Origin: Streptomyces sp. NBC_01197
GTDB lineage: Bacteria; Actinomycetota; Actinomycetes; Streptomycetales; Streptomycetaceae
DNA length: 64,000 bases
Assembly: GCF_036010505.1 (NCBI RefSeq)
Contig: NZ_CP108569.1
Coordinates: 4,692,001 to 4,756,000, forward strand
Direction: 5' to 3'
The notes beneath the pieces are model-generated. The model had not been told where the DNA came from, ran no database searches, and saw nothing but the letters and a program-made list of their open reading frames with translations. Below are positions 3,082 to 39,149 of the stretch, in pieces (position 1 is the stretch's first letter; each line of letters starts with the position of its first letter). Position numbers and translations under genes: made by a program.

Positions 3082-3741
3082 TCAGGCGCCCCTCTTCATG
3101 GAATGGCGCTGCCTGGTCCAGGGCGTGCACAGCCACTGGACGGTGACGAGCAGCGCGTCCGCCACCAGGGCGAGCAGCAGGGTCAGGATCACTCCGGCGA
3201 CGACCGGGGTGGGGTAGTTGCGCTGGAAGCCGTCGGTGAAGAGCTGGCCGAGGCCGCCGTACCCGATGTAGCTGGCGACGCTCACCAGCGAGATCGTCAT
3301 CACCGTGGAGACCCGGATACCGGCCATGATCACCGGGAGCGCCAGCGGCAGTTCCACGGTGAGCAGGGTGCGCAGCGGCCGGGTGCCCATGGCGGTGGAC
3401 GCTTCGCGCACCTTGGCGGGCACCGCGTCCAGGCCCTCGACGGTGTTCCGTACGAGCACCACCAGGGTGTACGCGGTCAGGCCGGTGATCGCCGTCGTCC
3501 GGGTGAGCCCGGTGATGGGCAGCAGCAGGACGAAGAAGGCCAGCGACGGGATCGTGTAGAGGATGTTCGAGAGTCCGAGTACGAAGCCGCGGAGCGCCCG
3601 GACCCGGTGGGCGAGCACTGCCAGCGGGAGTGCGATCAGCAGGCCGATGAGGACGGCGGGCACCGCGGTGGAGAGATGGTCCGCGGTGAGGTGCGCCATC
3701 TCGCCGGTGTGGTCGGGGAACCAGCCCCAGTCGACGGTCAT
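3082..3741 (-). CDS. Osmoprotectant ABC transporter permease (OpuCB/ProW-like)
   Basis: Second inner-membrane subunit, 219 residues starting MTVDWGWFPDHTGEMAHL, with about six membrane segments. The EAA loop reads VREASTAMGTRPLRTLLTVELPLALPVIMAGIR. The start at 3741 makes an ATGA overlap with the ATPase stop, a classic sign of translational coupling. A much longer frame to 4878 is antisense-like noise over the ATPase gene and was not used. The overlap fixes the gene order ATPase-permease-permease-binding protein. Confidence 0.9.
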   Translation of the reverse strand: MTVDWGWFPDHTGEMAHLTADHLSTAVPAVLIGLLIALPLAVLAHRVRALRGFVLGLSNILYTIPSLAFFVLLLPITGLTRTTAITGLTAYTLVVLVRNTVEGLDAVPAKVREASTAMGTRPLRTLLTVELPLALPVIMAGIRVSTVMTISLVSVASYIGYGGLGQLFTDGFQRNYPTPVVAGVILTLLLALVADALLVTVQWLCTPWTRQRHSMKRGA

Positions 3742-4871
3742 GCGGCGGTACCGGTCTTCGCGGGGGTGTCGCCTGCGGCTCCCGCGCTCGTGTGGGCCTC
3801 GCCTGCACGGTCGTGGATCGCGTCGCGCGAGGTGACGCCGGTCAGTGCGCCGTCGGCGTCCACCCGGGCCACCAGGCCGGCCGGGGACGAGACGGACTCG
3901 TTGAGCGCCGAGAGCAGCGAGTCGGTGTCGCGCAGCGCCCGGACGGGCAGCAGCGGGGCGTCGCCCGCGGTCCCGGCCGCTGGTGCGGTGTCCGCGTCGA
4001 GCCAGCCGAGCGGCCTGTTGTCGGCGGACGCCACAAGCTGCCAGCGGCCCGAGCCCTTCCCCTCCGATATTCGCTCGTCGGCGCGGATGACCGGGGCGGG
4101 GGTCTGGGGTATCCCCGCGAGCGTGGAGAGGGACAGCAGCTTCAGTCCGCGCTCGGCGCCGAGGAAGTCGGCCACGAAGTCGTCGGCGGGCCGGGCGAGC
4201 AGTTCGGCGGGTTCGGCGCACTGGACGAGATGGCCGCCGGTACGGAAGACCGCGATGCGGTCGCCGAGCCGGACGGCCTCGTCTATGTCGTGGGTGACGA
4301 ACACGATGGTCTTGTTCAGGTCCTTCTGGAGCCGCAGCAGCTCGTCCTGGAGCTGGGTGCGGACCACCGGGTCCACCGCGCCGAACGGCTCGTCCATCAG
4401 CAGCACCGGCGGGTCGGCCGCGAGCGCGCGGGCCACCCCGACGCGCTGCTGCTGGCCTCCGGAGAGCTGGTGCGGATAGCGCTTGCCGGTGTCGGCGTTC
4501 AGCCCGACCGTCTCCAGCAGCTCCGCCGCGCGGGCGCGGGCCTTCTTGCGGCCCCAGCCGAGCAGCAGCGGCACGGTGGCCACGTTGTCCAGGATCGTCC
4601 GGTGCGGGAAGAGCCCGGACTGCTGGATGACGTACCCGATGCCGCGCCGCAGCTCGGCTGCGTCCGCTTCGAGGATGTCCTTGCCCGCGAGTCGGATGGT
4701 CCCGGACGACGGGTCGACCATGCGGTTGATCATGCGGAGTGTGGTGGTCTTGCCGCACCCGGACGATCCGACGAGGACCGTGATCTGCCCCTCCGGCAGG
4801 TCCAGGTTGAGGTCGTGGACCGCGGTGGTGCCGTTCGGGAAGCGTTTGTGCACGGCGTCGAATTTGATCAT
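3738..4871 (-). CDS. Osmoprotectant ABC transporter ATPase with CBS domains (OpuCA/ProV-like)
   Basis: Energy-coupling subunit of the quaternary-amine importer, 377 residues. The nucleotide-binding domain has Walker A GSSGCGKTT at residues 35-43, the signature LSGGQQQRVGVARAL, Walker B VLLMDEPFGAVDP and the switch histidine in FVTHD. After about residue 250 there is a divergent region and a C-terminal CBS-like segment (DTDSLLSALNESVSSPAGLVARVDADGALTGVTSRDAI). In OpuA/OpuC systems this part senses ionic strength or nucleotides. It is the first gene of the operon and is divergent from the lyase-like gene, with about 140 bases between for promoters. Confidence 0.92.
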   Translation of the reverse strand: MIKFDAVHKRFPNGTTAVHDLNLDLPEGQITVLVGSSGCGKTTTLRMINRMVDPSSGTIRLAGKDILEADAAELRRGIGYVIQQSGLFPHRTILDNVATVPLLLGWGRKKARARAAELLETVGLNADTGKRYPHQLSGGQQQRVGVARALAADPPVLLMDEPFGAVDPVVRTQLQDELLRLQKDLNKTIVFVTHDIDEAVRLGDRIAVFRTGGHLVQCAEPAELLARPADDFVADFLGAERGLKLLSLSTLAGIPQTPAPVIRADERISEGKGSGRWQLVASADNRPLGWLDADTAPAAGTAGDAPLLPVRALRDTDSLLSALNESVSSPAGLVARVDADGALTGVTSRDAIHDRAGEAHTSAGAAGDTPAKTGTAA

Positions 4872-5009
4872 CGGTCATCCCTTGCCCGGCTGCATATGGT
4901 CATGCAGAGTTCTCGGTGTCTGAATAATTTGTCAATGGGCTGCGCTGAAACACTGGTGACGCCGGTCCATCAGGCGAGACCGAATGTCGGGAAAAGGAGG
5001 CGTTCGCGC

Positions 5010-6506
5010 ATGATGTCGTACCGCACGGTGGACACCCGGACCGGCACCCCCCAGACCGGCATCGTGGTCCTCGACGGTGAGTCCCTTCCGGTCGCCGATG
5101 TGGTCCGGCTCGCCCGTGGCACGGCAAGGCCCGTACCCGGGACCGAGGCGATGAAGCGTGTCGAACAGTCCTGGGACGCGGCGCGTGAGCTCGCCGCGTC
5201 GGGCCGGGTGTACGGCCGCTCCACCGGTGTCGGCGCCAACCGTAACGAGTCGGTGCCCTCCGGCGCAGCCGCCGACCACGGACTGCGGCTGCTGCGCTCG
5301 CACGCCGGGGCCATCGGGGACCCGCTGCCGGGCCACGAAGTCAGGGCCATGCTCGCAGTACGCGCCAACCAGCTGCTCGCCGGAGGGGCCGGGCTGCGGC
5401 CCACCGTCGTCACCGCGCTCTGCGAAGCTCTGGAGTCCGGCGCCCACCCCGTCGTCAACGAGTTCGGCTCGGTCGGAACCGGCGACATCGCGGCCCTCGC
5501 CCAGATGGGCCTCGCGCTGGCCGGCGAGCATCCCTGGCAGGGCGGCCCGCCGCCCGCCGCGCTGCTCCTCGACAACAACGACGCCCTCGCCTTGATCAGC
5601 AGCAACGCCCTCACCCTCGGACAGGCAGCGCTCGCACTCGACGAGCTGCGCGCACTGGTCGACGCGACCCAGGTGGTGGCCGCGCTGTCGCTGCTCGCCG
5701 TGGACGGCTCGTTCGAGGCGTACGCGGAGCCGGTGCACGCGGCCCGCCCGCACCCCGGCTCGTACGCCGTCGCCGCCCGCAGCCGCCGGCTGCTCGGCGC
5801 GCCCGACCGGCCCACCCCGCCGCTGGGCCGCATCCAGGACCCGTACGGCTTCCGCTGTGTCCCGCAGATCCACGGGCCCGCTCAGGACGCGGCCGACCTG
5901 CTGGAACGCACCATCGCCGTCGAGATCAACTCGGCGGCCGAGAACCCGCTGATCCACGCGGAGGACATGGCTGCCTACCACCACGGCGGCTTCTACATGG
6001 CCCAGCTGGCCCTGGCGCTCGACCACTTCCGGCTGGCCCTCACCCAGACCGCCCGGCTCTCCACGTCCCGGCTCTCCGAGCTGAACGAACCCGGGTTCAC
6101 CCGGCTCAGGCCCTTCCTCGCCGACGGTGAGGCGGCGTCGTCGGGCGTGATGATCCTGGAGTACGCGGCCGGGGCGGCACTCGGTGAGTTGAGCGCCCTG
6201 TCCGCGCCCGCCTCGCTCGGGCACGCCGTACTCTCCCGCGGCGTCGAGGAACAGGCCAGCTTCGCGTCGCTCGCGGCCCGGCAGGCGCTGCGGGCCGGAC
6301 GCGCGTACCGCTATGTCGTGGGCTGCGAACTGGTCTCCGCTGTAAGGGCGTTGCGCCAGCGCGAGCTGCGGATCGACCCCGATTTGCCGGTCGGATGTGC
6401 CTTCGCCCTGGCGGACGAGGTGCTCGATCCGGATCTCGCGGACCGGCCGCTCACCGACGACGTGGAGACGGCGGCGGCGCTCCTCGACCGGTTCCATGAC
6501 CTCTGA
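5010..6506 (+). CDS. Histidine/phenylalanine ammonia-lyase superfamily protein, atypical MIO motif
   Basis: Member of the aromatic amino acid lyase family (HAL/PAL/TAL), 498 residues, the usual length for HutH. Recognisable blocks are VYGRSTGVGANRNE (Tyr68 matches the catalytic tyrosine), QDPYGFRCVPQIHG, SAAENPLIH and the helical C-terminal half. The segment that normally holds Ala-Ser-Gly, cyclised to the MIO electrophile, reads GSVGTGDIAAL at residues 153-163, so the serine is absent and the motif is one residue shorter. The usual LLNGTQ and QEDHVSM blocks are also altered (LISSNALTLG, VEEQASFASLA). It may not be an ammonia-lyase in the classical sense. The start at 5010 has AAAGGAGG about 9 bases upstream; ATG 5013 is equivalent. 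Confidence 0.8.
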   Translation: MMSYRTVDTRTGTPQTGIVVLDGESLPVADVVRLARGTARPVPGTEAMKRVEQSWDAARELAASGRVYGRSTGVGANRNESVPSGAAADHGLRLLRSHAGAIGDPLPGHEVRAMLAVRANQLLAGGAGLRPTVVTALCEALESGAHPVVNEFGSVGTGDIAALAQMGLALAGEHPWQGGPPPAALLLDNNDALALISSNALTLGQAALALDELRALVDATQVVAALSLLAVDGSFEAYAEPVHAARPHPGSYAVAARSRRLLGAPDRPTPPLGRIQDPYGFRCVPQIHGPAQDAADLLERTIAVEINSAAENPLIHAEDMAAYHHGGFYMAQLALALDHFRLALTQTARLSTSRLSELNEPGFTRLRPFLADGEAASSGVMILEYAAGAALGELSALSAPASLGHAVLSRGVEEQASFASLAARQALRAGRAYRYVVGCELVSAVRALRQRELRIDPDLPVGCAFALADEVLDPDLADRPLTDDVETAAALLDRFHDL

Positions 6507-6597
6507 GGGAACGGGCGGTGCCCCGGAGCGGGCACGTCCGGAAGGCGGCGGTTCAATGAACTCCGATGTGGAAGTGGAACTTGAGGGGGATGACGGC

Positions 6598-7434
6598 ATG
6601 AGCGACAGCCCGGCCGCACGGCTGCAACAGCTCTTCGAAGGGCACCGGCTGACACCGACCCAGCGGCGCATCGCGCACTGCATGGTGCGGCAGGCCGCCG
6701 AGGCGCCCTTCCTCTCCTCCGTCGAACTGGCCGAACTGGCCGGGGTCAGCCAGCCGTCCGTCACCCGGTTCGCGGTGGCGCTCGGCTTCGACGGCTACCC
6801 GGCGCTGCGCCGGCACCTGCGGGAGGTCGCCCCGGCCGGACGTGAGGCGGACGACGACAGCCTCAACGAGTACCAGCAGGCAGTCCACGCCGAGATGGAG
6901 AATCTGCGCCGGCTCGCCGAGGCACTGGCCGATCCCTCGCTGGTGGAACGCGCGGGCCGGCTGCTCGCTCAGTCCCCGACCCTGCCGGTACTGGGGCTGC
7001 GCGCCGCCTCCTCGCAGGCCAGGGGGTTCGCGTACTTCGCCGCCAAGGTCCACCGGGATGTCCGGCTGCTCGACGAGGGCGGCACGATGCTGGCCGACCG
7101 TATCGACGCCTCGGTACGGGCGGGGGCCACGGTGCTGCTCTGCTTCGCGCTGCCCCGCCACCCGCGTGAGGTGGTCGAGGCGCTCGCGTACGCGCAGTCG
7201 GCCGGGCTGACCGTGGTGACGGTCGCCGACTCGGCCTTCGCGCCCGTCGCCAAGCACAGCGACATCCTGATCCCCGCCGCCGTCGGTACCGGCCTTGCCT
7301 TCGACACGGTGTGCGGGCCGATGCTGCTGGGGCGGGTGCTGCTTGAGGCGATGTGCGACGACCTGCCGGAGGCGCAGTCGCGCCTGGAGGAGTTCGACAC
7401 CCGGGCGGTGGCGCGGGGGCTGTTCATGGAGTAG
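6598..7434 (+). CDS. MurR/RpiR-family transcriptional regulator
   Basis: Predicted DNA-binding regulator, 278 residues. The N-terminal RpiR helix-turn-helix covers roughly residues 5-80, with FLSSVELAELAGVSQPSVTRFAVALGFDGYPALRRHLRE. The C-terminal SIS (sugar isomerase) domain starts near residue 110 and has the glycine/serine-rich phosphosugar-type pocket (LGLRAASSQARGFAYFAAKV). I chose ATG 6598 because GAGGGGG lies about 9 bases upstream; ATG 6556 would add 14 residues with poor third-position G/C. It lies 91 bases after the lyase-like gene on the same strand and may regulate it. The ligand is unknown. Confidence 0.87.
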   Translation: MSDSPAARLQQLFEGHRLTPTQRRIAHCMVRQAAEAPFLSSVELAELAGVSQPSVTRFAVALGFDGYPALRRHLREVAPAGREADDDSLNEYQQAVHAEMENLRRLAEALADPSLVERAGRLLAQSPTLPVLGLRAASSQARGFAYFAAKVHRDVRLLDEGGTMLADRIDASVRAGATVLLCFALPRHPREVVEALAYAQSAGLTVVTVADSAFAPVAKHSDILIPAAVGTGLAFDTVCGPMLLGRVLLEAMCDDLPEAQSRLEEFDTRAVARGLFME

Positions 7435-7623
7435 CTCAGGTCATACGTGAGGAGGGTTGTAGGCCCCGGCGGGCCGGGCGCCAACGGGTTGGGCGCACAT
7501 TCGTCACAGCCGGACGCGTCGAGAGCGTCACCGGATGCGACGGGCCGGGCCATAAAGAACACTCTCAGAAACCGTCGCTAATCTCCGCTCGGTCCGGAGC
7601 AGGCGTGCGGAGGGAGTACGGAC

Positions 7624-8274
7624 GTGGGGCGCGGCAGAGCGCATACGCAGGCACAGGTGCGGGGGCAGGCGCAGACTCGGGGACAGGGTCAGGGCCGGTG
7701 GTCGGAGGGGCACGGTAAGGGCCGGCCGCGGACCGTGGCGAGAGTCGCGGTGCTGGTACGGGCCGGGGCCGCGCCGCTGTGGTGGCTGGGGCTGGTGGCC
7801 GCAGCCACCGGGGCGCTGCTGCCCGGCCTGACGGGGCGCAGGATCGGTCTCCTGGCCGGGGCCGCGCTCGCCCTGGTCACCTGCGCGCTGGTGGCCCTGG
7901 TCCGCGGGCGCAGGTTCGACCATCTGTCGAAGTCGCCCTCGCGGGCGGGCCGTTCGGACTTCCTCCAGGACCGGGCCGTGACGGTACGGAACTGGCGGCG
8001 TGCCCACCGCTGGTGGCTGCTCGTGGCCTTCGCCGCGGCGCTCGGCTCGTCGTTCGCGCTTCCCGCCGCGGGCGGGCTGACCCTCGCCGGAGCGGGCGCC
8101 GGACTCTGGCTCAAGGCGGTGCGGCTCGGCCGTCGCGAACAAGCGGACGACCTGCTCTTCTGGGTCCGTACCGACTGGATCGCACGCGGCCCGGCGGGGA
8201 AGCCGGTCAAGGGCTACAGCTCCACGGGTGTCCTCGCGGGCGACGCCGCACCCGGCGGGGCACGGCGTCGCTGA
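7624..8274 (+). CDS. Hypothetical integral membrane protein
   Basis: A 216-residue protein I do not recognise. A Gln/Gly/Arg-rich, probably cytoplasmic leader of about 35 residues is followed by hydrophobic segments near residues 40-70 (two, separated by TGRR), and another pair near 125-160. The C-terminus is basic and contains LLFWVRTDWIARGPAGKPVKGYSSTGV. GTG 7624 is preceded by GGAGGGAG at a good distance. It converges on the roadblock-type cluster, and a perfect 18-bp palindrome separates the two ends. Confidence 0.65.
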   Translation: MGRGRAHTQAQVRGQAQTRGQGQGRWSEGHGKGRPRTVARVAVLVRAGAAPLWWLGLVAAATGALLPGLTGRRIGLLAGAALALVTCALVALVRGRRFDHLSKSPSRAGRSDFLQDRAVTVRNWRRAHRWWLLVAFAAALGSSFALPAAGGLTLAGAGAGLWLKAVRLGRREQADDLLFWVRTDWIARGPAGKPVKGYSSTGVLAGDAAPGGARRR

Positions 8275-35032: not shown

Positions 35033-36052
35033 ATGGAGGATCAGGAACAGCAGACGCAGACGCCGGGGCGGTTCTTCATCAATGTGCAGCGCCGGGACGA
35101 CCCCGTATCCGAAGTCACCGAGCTGGATGCGATGGCCTCGGCGCGCAAGTACGGCGAGATCGTGGTCCGGGGGCCGCTCTTCGGCTTCGCCGAGCAGCGG
35201 CGTGGTGAACGGCCCCGGTGGCGGCTGCTCGGCGGGATGGACACGGGGTATCCGCAGGACGCCCGGGACGAACTCAACTCGTATCTCTGGCTCAAGGCCA
35301 AGGACGAGACCGACGATCACCTGGAACGGCGCGAACTGCTCGCGGCGGTCGCCCGGTTGGAGACCGAGCCGCTGAACGCCGTGTCCGCCTGGGGTACGCG
35401 CTACCGCATCGTGCGCGCCGACGAGTTCGCCAGGATCGGCGGGGGCCGGCTGGAGCCGCCGAGGCCCACCGACGTCGATACGGACGGCTGGGACGAGCCG
35501 CGCGTCCGCCCGGTGCCGCGCACCAAGGGCTTCGTGATCGACCACAGCGCCGCGGTCGGGCTGACCGAGGGCCTGGACCGGGCCGGCCTGCTGCCGCTCT
35601 CGTACACCTCCCGGCGCTTCCCGCCCGACGTACTGGCGGACTCCCGGCGTGCGGTGACGACCCACCCCGGCCTGGTGCTGCTGCCGGTCGCCTTCCGGAT
35701 CATGGAGCACAAGGAGCACACCTGGTCGATGGTGGGCGCGCAGTGCGTCACCCCCCAGGAGGCGCGGCGCTGGCTGGTGCACTACCTGACCGAGTCGCTG
35801 CCGATGTTCGGGAACATCAGCGAACGGGACGCCGAGGTGTACGCACGGGCGGCCGGGCGGTTCACCCAGCAGCGCAGGCCCAATGAGCTCCGGGTGCGCG
35901 GACGTTGCTTCCAGATCGTCCGGGTGGAGCGCATGATGCGCATCGGCCCGGACGGCCCCGAGCCCCCGCGGCGCTCGGACACGGACATCCAGGAGCCCAT
36001 CAAGATCCGCCCCACCATGGACGAGTGGGGCACGATCACGCACGGGGAGTAG
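35033..36052 (+). CDS. Conserved hypothetical protein (DUF5954-like)
   Basis: A 339-residue soluble protein of streptomycete type, which I tentatively match to DUF5954. It contains two similar halves: PLFGFAEQRRGERPRWRLLGGMDTGYPQDARDELNSYLW and WGTRYRIVRADEFARIGGGRLEPPRPTDVD in the first, and VAFRIMEHKEHTWSMVGAQCVTPQEARRWLVHYL and VRGRCFQIVRVERMMRIGPDGPEPPRRSDTD in the second. This is an internal duplication. There is no signal peptide or membrane helix. It is preceded by a hairpin terminator and an operator-like palindrome, so it is probably transcribed alone. An IS derivative lies 20 bases after its stop. Confidence 0.7.
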   Translation: MEDQEQQTQTPGRFFINVQRRDDPVSEVTELDAMASARKYGEIVVRGPLFGFAEQRRGERPRWRLLGGMDTGYPQDARDELNSYLWLKAKDETDDHLERRELLAAVARLETEPLNAVSAWGTRYRIVRADEFARIGGGRLEPPRPTDVDTDGWDEPRVRPVPRTKGFVIDHSAAVGLTEGLDRAGLLPLSYTSRRFPPDVLADSRRAVTTHPGLVLLPVAFRIMEHKEHTWSMVGAQCVTPQEARRWLVHYLTESLPMFGNISERDAEVYARAAGRFTQQRRPNELRVRGRCFQIVRVERMMRIGPDGPEPPRRSDTDIQEPIKIRPTMDEWGTITHGE

Positions 36053-36141
36053 CCCGGGCGGACGGAGCAGGACAATGCAGTTGTCTTTGAGTAGCGGAGA
36101 TCGTTGCCCCGCGTGTGACGGGGTGGGGCGCGGGCCAGCGG

Positions 36142-36630
36142 GTGCGAATTGGGACCCTGACGAAGGTGTTCACCGCCGAGCTGGTCGATGCGGAGTAGCC
36201 AAGCACGACCGAGCCGAGCGGCGCCGCCGACTTCCCTGCCGGGCCGATCAGGTCGCACCGGAGGGCGTCCGGCTGGAACTGTGGGCCTACTTCGCGGTCA
36301 CCACGCGATCCGCAAGTTCGCTCACACAGCGGCGCTCGCCCGCCCCGCCGTGGACGCCGACCGCATTTCCGACCTGAAGTGCGTCCGCAGCATCCCACCC
36401 CAGCTCGGAGCGACCGACGCCAGGCTCACCCGCTCCTTCACTGAGGCCAGGCAGGAGGCACGCGCGCGCCTCCTCCCGGCCCGGCGCAATCGGGACTGCC
36501 CACGCGCGGTACAAGAAGCCGAACCGATAGCCCGTGCTGAGGACCCGCGCCAGACGCGGCACCGTGCAGCCCGGCCGTTGGGCCCACAATCAGTCCAGGA
36601 AGCCGAAGAGCACCTGCCGGGTCGAAAGGC
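36142..36630 (+). pseudogene. IS4-family-like transposase remnant (deleted, frameshifted, nonsense)
   Basis: Fragments are spread over three frames. VRIGTLTKVFTAELVDAE resembles the N-terminus and ends in TAG. KHDRAERRRRLPCR then VRLELWAYFAV follows in a second frame. HHAIRKFAHTAALARPAVDADRIS and SFTEARQEARARLLPARRNRDCPRAV, C-terminal-like, sit in a third. Finally RYKKPNR-stop-PVLRTRARRGT has TAG where a tyrosine codon would be one change away. The middle of the protein, with the catalytic acidic residues, is missing. Family assignment is from memory of streptomycete IS4 transposases. Confidence 0.7.
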
Positions 36631-36660
36631 CGACTCAGAGAAGCACCAACCCCCACCGCC

Positions 36661-37044
36661 CTAGAGCAGGTACTGGGCGTCCCCGTTCCCGAGCGACCAG
36701 TCGGCATCGGTGTTCTCGGTCAGCACGACGAACACGTTGCGGGGTTCCGTCCCCGCGTATTCCTGAGCGAGCTCGGCAATACGTCGGTACAGCGCCTGCT
36801 TCTGGGCGGCCGACCGGCCACCCCGCAAAGTGATCGCCACGTACACGATGCCGTCGTCCCGCTGCACGTCGAGGTAGGTGCCGTGACGCAAAACGCTGCG
36901 TTCCCCGTCGTGTCCGGTGAGGATCTGGAAACGATCGTCGTCCGGGATCCCCATCGTCTCGCCCAGCGCCTCCTGGACGGCGCGCCCCAATGCCTTCAAT
37001 CGCTGGGCGTCACAGCCCAGAACATCGATGCGAACGAGCGGCAT
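36661..37044 (-). CDS. 4-oxalocrotonate tautomerase-like (tautomerase_2) protein
   Basis: A 127-residue tautomerase-superfamily protein. Pro2, the catalytic base of the family after methionine removal, is present in MPLVRIDVLGC. The double beta-alpha-beta layout continues with LKALGRAVQEALGETMGIPDDDRFQILTGHD and GRSAAQKQALYRRIAELAQEYAGTEPRNVFVVLTENTDADWSLGNGDAQYL. ATG 37044 is preceded by AGGAGG at about 6 bases; a 19-residue longer form has no such site. It lies inside the inverted-repeat-bounded element and looks intact, unlike the transposase beside it. The substrate is unknown. Confidence 0.8.
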   Translation of the reverse strand: MPLVRIDVLGCDAQRLKALGRAVQEALGETMGIPDDDRFQILTGHDGERSVLRHGTYLDVQRDDGIVYVAITLRGGRSAAQKQALYRRIAELAQEYAGTEPRNVFVVLTENTDADWSLGNGDAQYLL

Positions 37045-37246
37045 GGAGCCTCCTGGGGAGATCGGCAATGCGACACCGAGTGTACGTACCAGTAGGTACA
37101 CACGACGTGCGAGTGCCGCCTAAAGCAACTGCATTGGACGGAGCAGGCCCCCGGGCCGGGGTCCGGGGGCCTGCTCCGTCTTGTCCAGCGGACCAGTTCG
37201 GGTCCAGTTCGGGCCCAAGCCGGGCCAGTTCGGGCCCAAGCCGGCG

Positions 37247-38506
37247 CTAGTTACCCGAAACCGTCACCGTGTCGTCGTCCTTCAGCTCCTGCACCAGCTG
37301 CTTGACCTTGGTCTTGTCCCAGACCAGATTGCCGCCGGTGGAGCCGGAGATCGGCATGTTCATCTGCTTGCCGTCACCGCCCGACACACCCTTCATGGCC
37401 CAGAACATGGATGCCAGGTTCCACAGGCTCATGTCCTTGTCCACGATCAGCGTGTCCAGGCCCGCGCCCATCACCGGGTAGAGCTTGAAGGGGTTCATGA
37501 TCGTGGACGGGGTGGCCGTCTGGGAGGCCAGGGCCGCCAGGAACTTCTGCTGGTTCTTCGTGCGCTGCAGGTCGCTGGCCGCGAAGGCGTGCCGGGTGCG
37601 GACGAAGGCCAGGGCCTGGCTGCCGTTGAGGGTCTGCTTGCCCGCCGGGAAGTCGGCGCCGGAGTCCTTGTCCTTGAACGCCTGCGGAATGTCCATCTGG
37701 ACCCCGCCGACCGCGTCCACGATGCTTGCGAAGCCGTCGAAACCGATCTCCGCGTAGTGGTCGATGTGCAGCCCGGTGTTGTACTCGATGGTGCGCACCA
37801 GCAGCTCCGGGCCGTCCTCCGCGTACGCGGCGTTCAGCTTCGTCTGCCGGCCGGTGTTCGGGTAGAGCTTGCCGGACGACGAGCCCTTGTACGACGGGAT
37901 CGTGACGTTCGAGTCACGGGGCAGCGAGACCATCGTGTTCCCGTGGTCACCGACGTGCAGGATGATCATGGAGTCGGTGCGCTTGCCCTCGGCGGAGCCG
38001 GTGTGCAGCTTCTTCTTGTCGGCCGCGGACATGCCGTCGCGGCTGTCCGAGCCCACGATCAGGTAGTTCGTGCCCTTGCCCGTGGCGGGACGGTCGATGA
38101 CCTTGGACAGGTCGACCTCGCGGCGCAGCTTTCCGTCGGCCCAGAAGTACGTACCGATGGAGACGCCGAGGATCGCGATCACCAGGACCAGCGCGCCGAT
38201 CTTGATGCGGCGGCGCCAGTTCGGGGGGGTGCCCGGACGTGTGGTGGGGTACGGGCCGCCAGCGCCCTGGCCGCCCTGGCCTCTCCGGCTGCCGGGGCCC
38301 GAGGGGCCACCCTGCCCGTAGACCTGGCCCGTGTTGTAGCCACTGTCGTACGCGGAGTCGTATCCGTTGTCGTAACCCTGGTCCTGCTGCTGTCCGCCGT
38401 ACTGCCGCTGGGCAGGTGGCGTCGAACGCTGCACGTGCCGCATGACCCGAGCACCGTCGGGCTGTGCGTTCTCGCTGCCGCGTCCGTAGCGGTCCCTGTC
38501 GTCCAT
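37247..38506 (-). CDS. LCP-family cell wall polymer ligase (LytR-CpsA-Psr) 1
   Basis: A 419-residue type II membrane protein of the LCP family, which transfers lipid-linked glycopolymers to peptidoglycan outside the membrane. A Gly/Gln/Tyr-rich cytoplasmic tail (residues 1-97) is followed by one helix (101-120) and the LCP domain. That domain has YLIVGSDSRDG, RTDSMIILHV, MVSLPRDS, LNAAYAEDGPELLVRTIEYNTGLHIDHYAEI and QALAFVRTRH. There is no LytR_C domain, unlike the neighbouring paralogues. ATG 38506 has a weak ribosome-binding site. It is divergent from the thioesterase gene. Confidence 0.9.
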   Translation of the reverse strand: MDDRDRYGRGSENAQPDGARVMRHVQRSTPPAQRQYGGQQQDQGYDNGYDSAYDSGYNTGQVYGQGGPSGPGSRRGQGGQGAGGPYPTTRPGTPPNWRRRIKIGALVLVIAILGVSIGTYFWADGKLRREVDLSKVIDRPATGKGTNYLIVGSDSRDGMSAADKKKLHTGSAEGKRTDSMIILHVGDHGNTMVSLPRDSNVTIPSYKGSSSGKLYPNTGRQTKLNAAYAEDGPELLVRTIEYNTGLHIDHYAEIGFDGFASIVDAVGGVQMDIPQAFKDKDSGADFPAGKQTLNGSQALAFVRTRHAFAASDLQRTKNQQKFLAALASQTATPSTIMNPFKLYPVMGAGLDTLIVDKDMSLWNLASMFWAMKGVSGGDGKQMNMPISGSTGGNLVWDKTKVKQLVQELKDDDTVTVSGN

Positions 38507-38624
38507 GTGGACCAGTGTGCCGTCACAGTGCGTATGTATTACAGGGCGGGTGTGGAATCGGGGCTGTGCTGTTGCAGAGCTGATGCAAAGTGCCGGGCTG
38601 CGGGCCCGGCCTAAGCTGGCACGT

Positions 38625-39149
38625 ATGACAGATCTTCCGGGCAAGCCCACCTCGGCCTCACGAACCACCCTGAGTCACATCATGACGGGCAATGACACCA
38701 ACCTCCTCGGTACCGTGCACGGTGGCGTGATCATGAAACTGGTGGACGACGCGGCCGGCGCCGTGGCCGGCCGGCACTCCGGCGGGCCCGCGGTCACCGC
38801 GTCGATGGACGAGATGGTCTTCCTGGAGCCGGTCCGCGTCGGTGACCTGGTCCATGTGAAGGCTCAGGTGAACTGGACCGGCCGGTCGTCGATGGAGGTC
38901 GGCGTACGGGTCCTGGCCGAGCGGTGGAACGAGTCGTCCCCGGCCCAGCAGGTCGGCAGCGCCTATCTGGTCTTCGCCGCGGTCGACGCGGACGGCAAGC
39001 CCCGGGCCGTACCGCCGGTGGTCCCCGGCAGCGAGCGCGACAAGCGGCGCTACCAGGAGGCGCAGATCCGCCGCACGCACCGGCTGGCCCGGCGCCGCGC
39101 GATCAAGGAGCTGCGGGAGCGGCACCTGGCCGACGGCATCGACGACTGA
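38625..39149 (+). CDS. Hotdog-fold acyl-CoA thioesterase
   Basis: A 174-residue acyl-CoA thioesterase of the 4HBT / YciA-BACH type. The active-site block is TNLLGTVHGGVIMKLVDDAAGAVAGRHSGG (Asn and Asp of the hotdog helix). It is followed by FLEPVRVGDLVHVKAQVNWTGRSSMEVGVRV and AYLVFAAVDADGKPRAVPPV. The Arg-rich C-terminal helix (YQEAQIRRTHRLARRRAIKEL) is common in this subgroup. ATG 38625 begins MTDLPGKPTSAS; the frame upstream overlaps the LCP start and is not conserved-looking. It is cytosolic, and its physiological acyl-CoA is unknown. Confidence 0.9.
   Translation: MTDLPGKPTSASRTTLSHIMTGNDTNLLGTVHGGVIMKLVDDAAGAVAGRHSGGPAVTASMDEMVFLEPVRVGDLVHVKAQVNWTGRSSMEVGVRVLAERWNESSPAQQVGSAYLVFAAVDADGKPRAVPPVVPGSERDKRRYQEAQIRRTHRLARRRAIKELRERHLADGIDD

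Follow-up and report, generated by a model that had tools for sequence, protein, structure and literature searches.

A probable decayed IS4-subgroup transporter element with a tautomerase gene in Streptomyces, and its cargo-carrying relatives

Insertion sequences (IS) with passenger genes unrelated to transposition are described as transporter IS (tIS), and units in which IS ends surround a passenger gene without a transposase of its own are described as mobile insertion cassettes (MICs). Both are kinds already known from the passages that define them (PMC3129680, PMC9330008, PMC1196294). The account of IS231 and MIC231 describes modular cargo in IS4-family ends and reports trans-activation of MIC231 by the IS231 transposase (PMC1196294). 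In its treatment of passenger genes, a 2008 review reports such modularity only for the IS231 subgroup, where the passengers lie between the left end and the transposase (PMC2266710). For the IS4 subgroup, Table 1 and the accompanying text of that review give the terminal bases -AATR--------WTW, target duplications of 10-13 bp, and specificity that resides in the target arms (PMC2266710).

We analyzed a window of 64 kb (the whole stretch of DNA under study) from a 7.7-Mb Streptomyces genome, which contains an IS4-type unit with a tautomerase gene. Like IS231/MIC231 of the Bacillus cereus group, this unit and its relatives combine modular cargo within IS4-family ends with transposase-less cassettes, but they belong to another subgroup and have their cargo at the opposite side of the transposase; the trans-activation reported concerns MIC231 (PMC1196294). 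Several siblings fit the description of a tIS, whereas the window copy has lost its transposase and is no longer a functional IS in the sense of those definitions (PMC3129680, PMC9330008). In structure it is a MIC, with IS ends around a passenger and no transposase of its own. We found no description of this Streptomyces element family in open-licence papers.

Boundaries, contents and insertion site

The features of the locus are as follows (window positions).

35033-36052, plus strand: left neighbour, DUF5954 gene
36061-36072, plus strand: target duplication, left copy GACGGAGCAGGA, agreeing with the right copy at 11/12 positions
36073-37136: whole element, 1,064 bp, IS4 subgroup
36073-36083, plus strand: left inverted end CAATGCAGTTG, exact over 11 bp
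36073-36091: family start CAATGCAGTTGYYTTTGAG, at the left end
36142-36233, plus strand: N-terminal transposase remnant, residues ~1-31 of sibling transposase P0001, frameshift near residue 17
36234-36242: deletion junction, ~842 bp absent by comparison with siblings (their positions ~170 to ~1011), probably one event
36234-36663, plus strand: C-terminal transposase remnant
36661-36664: CTAG, in which the remnant transposase frame (plus) and the tautomerase (minus) share their stop codons
36661-37044, minus strand: passenger gene, MSAD-like tautomerase of 127 aa, open and intact
37049-37054, minus strand: ribosome-binding site AGGAGG, 4 nt before the tautomerase ATG
37081-37100, minus strand: palindrome TGTACCTACTGGTACGTACA, also conserved ahead of chromosomal homologues, a candidate operator or promoter element
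37126-37136, minus strand: right inverted end CAATGCAGTTG, exact over 11 bp
37137-37148, plus strand: right copy of the target duplication, GACGGAGCAGGC
37137-37180: terminator-like hairpin between the convergent genes, 21-nt arms, 95% complementary, the insertion target
37247-38668, minus strand: right neighbour, LytR-CpsA-Psr (LCP) gene

A sequence-only reading had described a unit of about 1.06 kb with matching 11-bp inverted ends and an 11-bp flanking repeat, both still perfect, around a wrecked transposase and an intact tautomerase. The size, the IS4 type, the passenger and the exact inverted ends all hold. The flanking repeat needs revision. Although GACGGAGCAGG is present on both sides (36061-36071 and 37137-37147), one extra A (36072) separates its left copy from the inverted end. 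Because the duplications of siblings directly adjoin the element ends (12/12 matches in 9 of 18 elements), that of the window is best read as 12 bp, GACGGAGCAGG followed by A or C, with 11/12 positions matching.

Repeats of such quality could arise by chance in a GC-rich genome with no element involved, and the window does hold 632 exact 11-nt inverted pairs spaced 300-5000 nt apart. Only two of these pairs are flanked by a 12-nt direct repeat with ≥9/12 matching positions, namely this element (11/12) and one other (10/12). The exact 11-mer CAATGCAGTTG occurs three times in the genome, and two of the occurrences are the ends of this element. The siblings described below share ends, internal homology and duplications, which refutes a chance artefact, and we give that reading practically no weight.

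The right duplication copy is also part of one arm of the 37137-37180 hairpin, and thus of the target (a 59-nt stretch folds at -49.5 kcal/mol). The element inserted into the 5′ arm; as the start of this arm was duplicated, the hairpin stands whole on the right side. We compared 18 orthologous LCP loci from the same genus, with ~1.5 kb of flank per locus. A DUF5954 neighbour was lacking in 17, and no clean empty site was found in the 18. The sole locus with DUF5954 beside LCP (L143, genome G005) has ~60 bp between the genes, and that genome has no match anywhere to the element or tautomerase DNA. The comparison fits an insertion in this lineage, although L143 is not an empty site of the same species. 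No Rfam family was detected at window positions 35900-37400.

The transposase is indeed wrecked, reduced to two frameshifted remnants without a catalytic core. The element matches siblings in two pieces, at sibling positions 1-169 and ~1011-1458, so a single ~842-bp deletion would account for most of the damage. Measured against a relative of 463 aa, the pieces cover residues ~1-31 and ~338-455, and they are mutually out of frame in places. Two frameshifts, near residues 17 and 414, come in addition to the deletion, and all three DDE residues fall within the deleted stretch.

The tautomerase frame is open, as had been noted, and its product matches PF14552 (1.6e-25), with PF14552 and PF01361 both above their cut-offs. 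Proline directly follows the initial methionine, as in the MSAD-like tautomerase superfamily. The closest solved relatives by sequence, malonate semialdehyde decarboxylases (PDB 3mjz, 5.1e-19; 2aag, 1.5e-14), match over the full length, though only with E values of this order. Pairwise dN/dS against six homologues is 0.09-0.15, a pairwise value that also spans time outside the element, and 8 of the 12 private changes in the window gene are at third positions. We infer that purifying selection kept the gene after the transposase was lost.

A protein search with the tautomerase gave 715 proteins at E ≤ 1e-30. Among the best 120 of the 715, the top matches are 90-97% identical, the named organisms among them are Streptomyces, and some of these tautomerases may themselves lie inside elements. 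We found no second tautomerase relative in the same genome. In the longest matches to chromosomal tautomerase genes, similarity sets in 26-37 nt from the right end, within the element and near the 20-bp palindrome. This palindrome, TGTACCTACTRGTATGTACA, is conserved ahead of Streptomyces tautomerase genes: for 24 of 32 distinct homologues, the 400 nt before the gene contain it with ≤3 mismatches. Among random windows of these loci the figure is 88 of 2,050, and some of these windows include the same sites. It was not found elsewhere in the genome at ≤2 mismatches. It looks like an operator for some regulator and probably serves the tautomerase gene as operator or promoter; expression of the gene is probably driven by its own promoter.

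Related elements and their cargo

We searched 392 genomes of the genus, including the genome under study, with two candidates scored per genome; 103 had a DNA match at 1e-12. Most of the matches listed cover the tautomerase part only, and a minority cover IS parts. Scanning a public genome collection for the family start CAATGCAGTTGYYTTTGAG gave 26 stretches, of which 18 are in Streptomyces (17 genomes), one in Actinomadura, one in Williamsia and six in unrelated bacteria. We examined 22 of the 26, leaving out four unrelated ones; the Williamsia stretch and the two unrelated stretches examined held no credible element. Three Streptomyces plasmids provided further elements.

The resulting table comprises 18 elements with both ends, 17 from Streptomyces (including the window copy) and one from Actinomadura, and thus 17 relatives (16 and one). 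Loci with a left end only (e.g., L115, L125, L127, L132, L133, L137, L138, L180, L182 and L183) were excluded, and a further end-to-end element of 1,739 bp at L181 stands outside the counts of 18. Genomes known by two names were counted once (G317, S. kebangsaanensis; G060, S. klenkii; G279, S. glomeratus; G217, S. durocortorensis). The same ends elsewhere and full-length IS4 relatives, for which the sequence-only reading asked, were found: some of the 17 other elements have long uninterrupted transposases.

One sibling transposase, P0001, matches Nterm_IS4 (6.6e-26) and DDE_Tnp_1 and scores above the cut-off of NCBIfam transpos_IS4_1. Its DDE residues (D119, D196 and E303) were assigned by motif position, with spacings plausible for the IS4 family, and its YREK motif is YRERWEIELAFDEIK at 296; D(60~110)D(100~150)E and Y(2)R(3)E(6)K thus occur in one ORF. 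The left end in the window, CAATGCAGTTGTCTTTGAG, fits the terminal pattern of the IS4 subgroup, and family right ends commonly read ...AARGCAACTGCATTG. The elements have common ends and target duplications of 10-12 bp, within the 10-13 bp of the subgroup. Matches between duplication copies are 12/12 in nine of the 18 elements, 11/12 in two (one being the window copy), 11/11 in two, 10/10 in one and 9/11 in one, with no clean duplication in three. The family therefore resembles the IS4 subgroup, as characterized in the review's subgroup account, in its Nterm_IS4 and DDE_Tnp_1 domains, YREK motif, terminal bases, duplication length and target-arm specificity, and differs in having cargo to the right of the transposase (PMC2266710).

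In a typical member, a DDE transposase comes first, and a cargo slot then extends from its stop codon to the ~14-bp right end. Of the 18 elements, 14 have a cargo gene to the right of the transposase region and inside the right end. The slot contents are as follows.

Window element: MSAD-like tautomerase
G308, S. roseicoloratus, TRM68416: HEAT protein (3 of 18)
S. durocortorensis, F-6492: small membrane protein (2 of 18; membrane call by eye)
WAC06614, S. zaomyceticus plasmid: bL12 C-terminal-domain (bL12-like) protein (2 of 18)
S. kebangsaanensis: DUF4262 protein
S. durocortorensis: DUF6461 protein, together with the membrane protein
S. glomeratus: beta-trefoil protein (secreted, by eye)
Streptomyces aureus NRRL B-2808: peptidoglycan-binding protein
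G041: barstar-family protein
NBC_00715 plasmid: NB-ARC/TPR protein
G147: two proteins without a family
S. klenkii, Actinomadura: bare elements without cargo
RKAG290, S. yangpuensis plasmid: slot DNA without a named gene

The largest tabulated member, on a plasmid of Streptomyces sp. NBC_00715 (L176, 3173-7804), measures 4,632 bp, and its cargo protein has 830 aa. In G041 (L106, 2784-3571), the barstar-family gene lies antisense to the transposase remnant in a unit of 788 bp without the transposase core. None of ten cargo proteins, including the tautomerase, matched a PADLOC defence family.

Transposases are open and without stops in G147, G217 and G279, match in one piece in F-6492 and Streptomyces aureus NRRL B-2808, and are annotated as one CDS in the S. 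zaomyceticus plasmid copy; all six elements carry cargo. We compared the first 1,440 bp of 12 of the 18 elements. Eleven of these backbones are mutually 83-94% identical, and that of S. klenkii is 75-77% identical to the other 11. Different cargo occurs on the 83-94% identical backbones: among the 12 compared, slots with different cargo do not cross-match and slots with shared cargo match at 82-91%. The HEAT, small membrane and bL12-like proteins recur at different sites in different species, and therefore cargo travels with the element. The S. durocortorensis slot has ~755 bp more than that of F-6492, including the DUF6461 gene, ahead of the shared membrane protein, and so cargo can stack. 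In these two elements the right end matches the left end, inverted, over 66-71 bp, which suggests that the left end of another copy may be recruited as a new right end.

The tautomerase might have inserted or recombined into a plain IS relic at this locus, after transposition, and we found no other element with the same tautomerase in the genomes and plasmid records searched. However, the gene occupies the same slot as the cargo of 13 other elements (in G041, which has no C-terminal remnant, the slot is deduced), and in the two longest matches sibling homology runs to 36663-36665, at the tautomerase stop. The right end is also intact beyond the tautomerase palindrome, and cargo travels in siblings. 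We consider this secondary association very improbable.

Target sites

The 13 elements with a clear duplication have a firm arm preference, G-rich on the left and C-rich on the right. To the left of the duplication, the nearest base is G in 13/13, the next two in 11/13 each and the fourth in 8/13, while to its right C stands at the first four positions in 12, 12, 11 and 12 of 13. In the 64 kb of the GC-rich window, the exact form GGGG-N12-CCCC occurs twice and the looser 3-of-4 form 676 times. IS186 of E. coli is not known to carry cargo. G-rich and C-rich arms frame its sites as well, the preferred site being given as GGGG(N6/N7)CCCC in the passage on its insertion, but the Streptomyces family has ~12 bp between the arms, a wider spacing (PMC6925257).

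We compared the folding of 50 nt at each site with 200 random windows of the same locus. Four of the 13 sites beat all random windows, seven were matched by at most 11 of 200 and six by at least 24. The site in the window was matched by 27 of 200, its long hairpin extending beyond the folded 50 nt, and one site was matched by 141. We infer that terminators are the target of the family. The target GCCTTCGCCGGC, or a near-identical one, has been struck repeatedly on different replicons (L118, L127, L138, L175, L180, L182, L183 and L101), and this hot spot is perhaps a common terminator hairpin. In two elements the flanks repeat each other in inverted, not direct, orientation: L174 (S. yangpuensis plasmid, 3432-5423; GCCTTCGCTGGC and GCCGGCGAAGGC) and L135 (Actinomadura, 6277-7893; GGCTCCGTGGCC and GGCCACGGAGCC). 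The arrangement looks like the outcome of recombination between two copies or of a flipped hairpin loop.

Insertion, decay and mobility

We consider it likely that the unit is a decayed IS4-subgroup transporter IS of Streptomyces that inserted in cis with its tautomerase and subsequently lost the transposase core, the tautomerase being kept under selection. The ancestor would have had a complete transposase and a tautomerase captured with its upstream palindrome and ribosome-binding site. Cut-and-paste transposition by a DDE transposase is expected for the IS4 family. By this route the ancestor would have entered one arm of the terminator-like hairpin between the DUF5954 and LCP genes. A single ~842-bp deletion after insertion would have removed the catalytic core, and the remnant would then have decayed, while purifying selection would have retained the tautomerase, whose expression is probably driven by a promoter of its own. 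This explanation is supported by siblings that combine cargo and a long uninterrupted transposase with these same ends.

The sequence-only reading had instead suggested that the unit may have moved in trans; on this view, the deleted unit was itself mobilized by a transposase, which would since have been lost. Both ends are intact, MIC231 of Bacillus is trans-activated by the IS231 transposase in the account cited (PMC1196294), and the family includes further transposase-deleted cargo units (G041, 788 bp; WAC06614, 1363 bp; S. roseicoloratus, 1713 bp). But had a cassette been mobilized in trans, the same deletion should recur at two sites or more. In the four transposase-deleted elements that we examined, no two deletions are alike, in keeping with insertion in cis and later decay. 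A fifth, the NBC_00715 plasmid element, seems to lack a ~215-bp piece, again a different deletion. Besides this copy, we found no other in the genome and no cognate transposase. Loss after insertion is favoured because of the single copy, the lack of a helper in the genome and the four different deletions. Movement in trans is thus unsupported and in our view unlikely, while the IS4-type unit with a passenger and the full-length relatives stand.

Other candidates in the genome were set aside. A near-end pair at 26.9/27.9 kb (L028 and L029, without an element match) and its mirrored counterpart at 7.60 Mb, each with one mismatch per end, look like chance. The sole Nterm_IS4 match, a transposase at C1:1.62 Mb (L172, 473-aa frame), was considered as a helper; it is 36% identical to the family, and its ends are CAACGCAGTTCAGTTAGG-like and differ by eye.

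Some results count against decay after insertion in cis. An intact transposase with the same tautomerase was found neither in the 103 of 392 genus genomes with matches, nor in 38 of 395 relatives (a set overlapping the 392, with two candidates scored per genome), nor in 12 plasmid records. Target-site folding is uneven, and the dN/dS values, being pairwise, are not confined to time inside the element. If a cognate transposase entered the cell, the decayed unit could still move.

More broadly, the elements may represent a modular IS4-subgroup gene shuttle shared by Streptomyces, with a bare relative in Actinomadura, a proposal whose chances we rate as about even. It would have a one- or two-gene slot between the transposase stop and the right end, with swapping cargo, some with its own control sites, on chromosomes and linear plasmids. 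It would target G4-N12-C4 terminator-type sites, so that cargo lands without gene breakage, and new right ends would possibly derive from inverted left ends of neighbouring copies (~70-bp inverted repeats in two elements). The window copy alone is of modest interest; the interest lies in the family. It extends cargo-carrying IS4-type elements beyond IS231 of Bacillus to another subgroup, another cargo position and the actinobacteria, measured against the review's account of passenger genes (PMC2266710). As a small natural system, the family also allows the capture and exchange of cargo and the preference for sites to be tested with short DNA, and it offers a simple route by which accessory genes pass between Streptomyces species, one or two per move.
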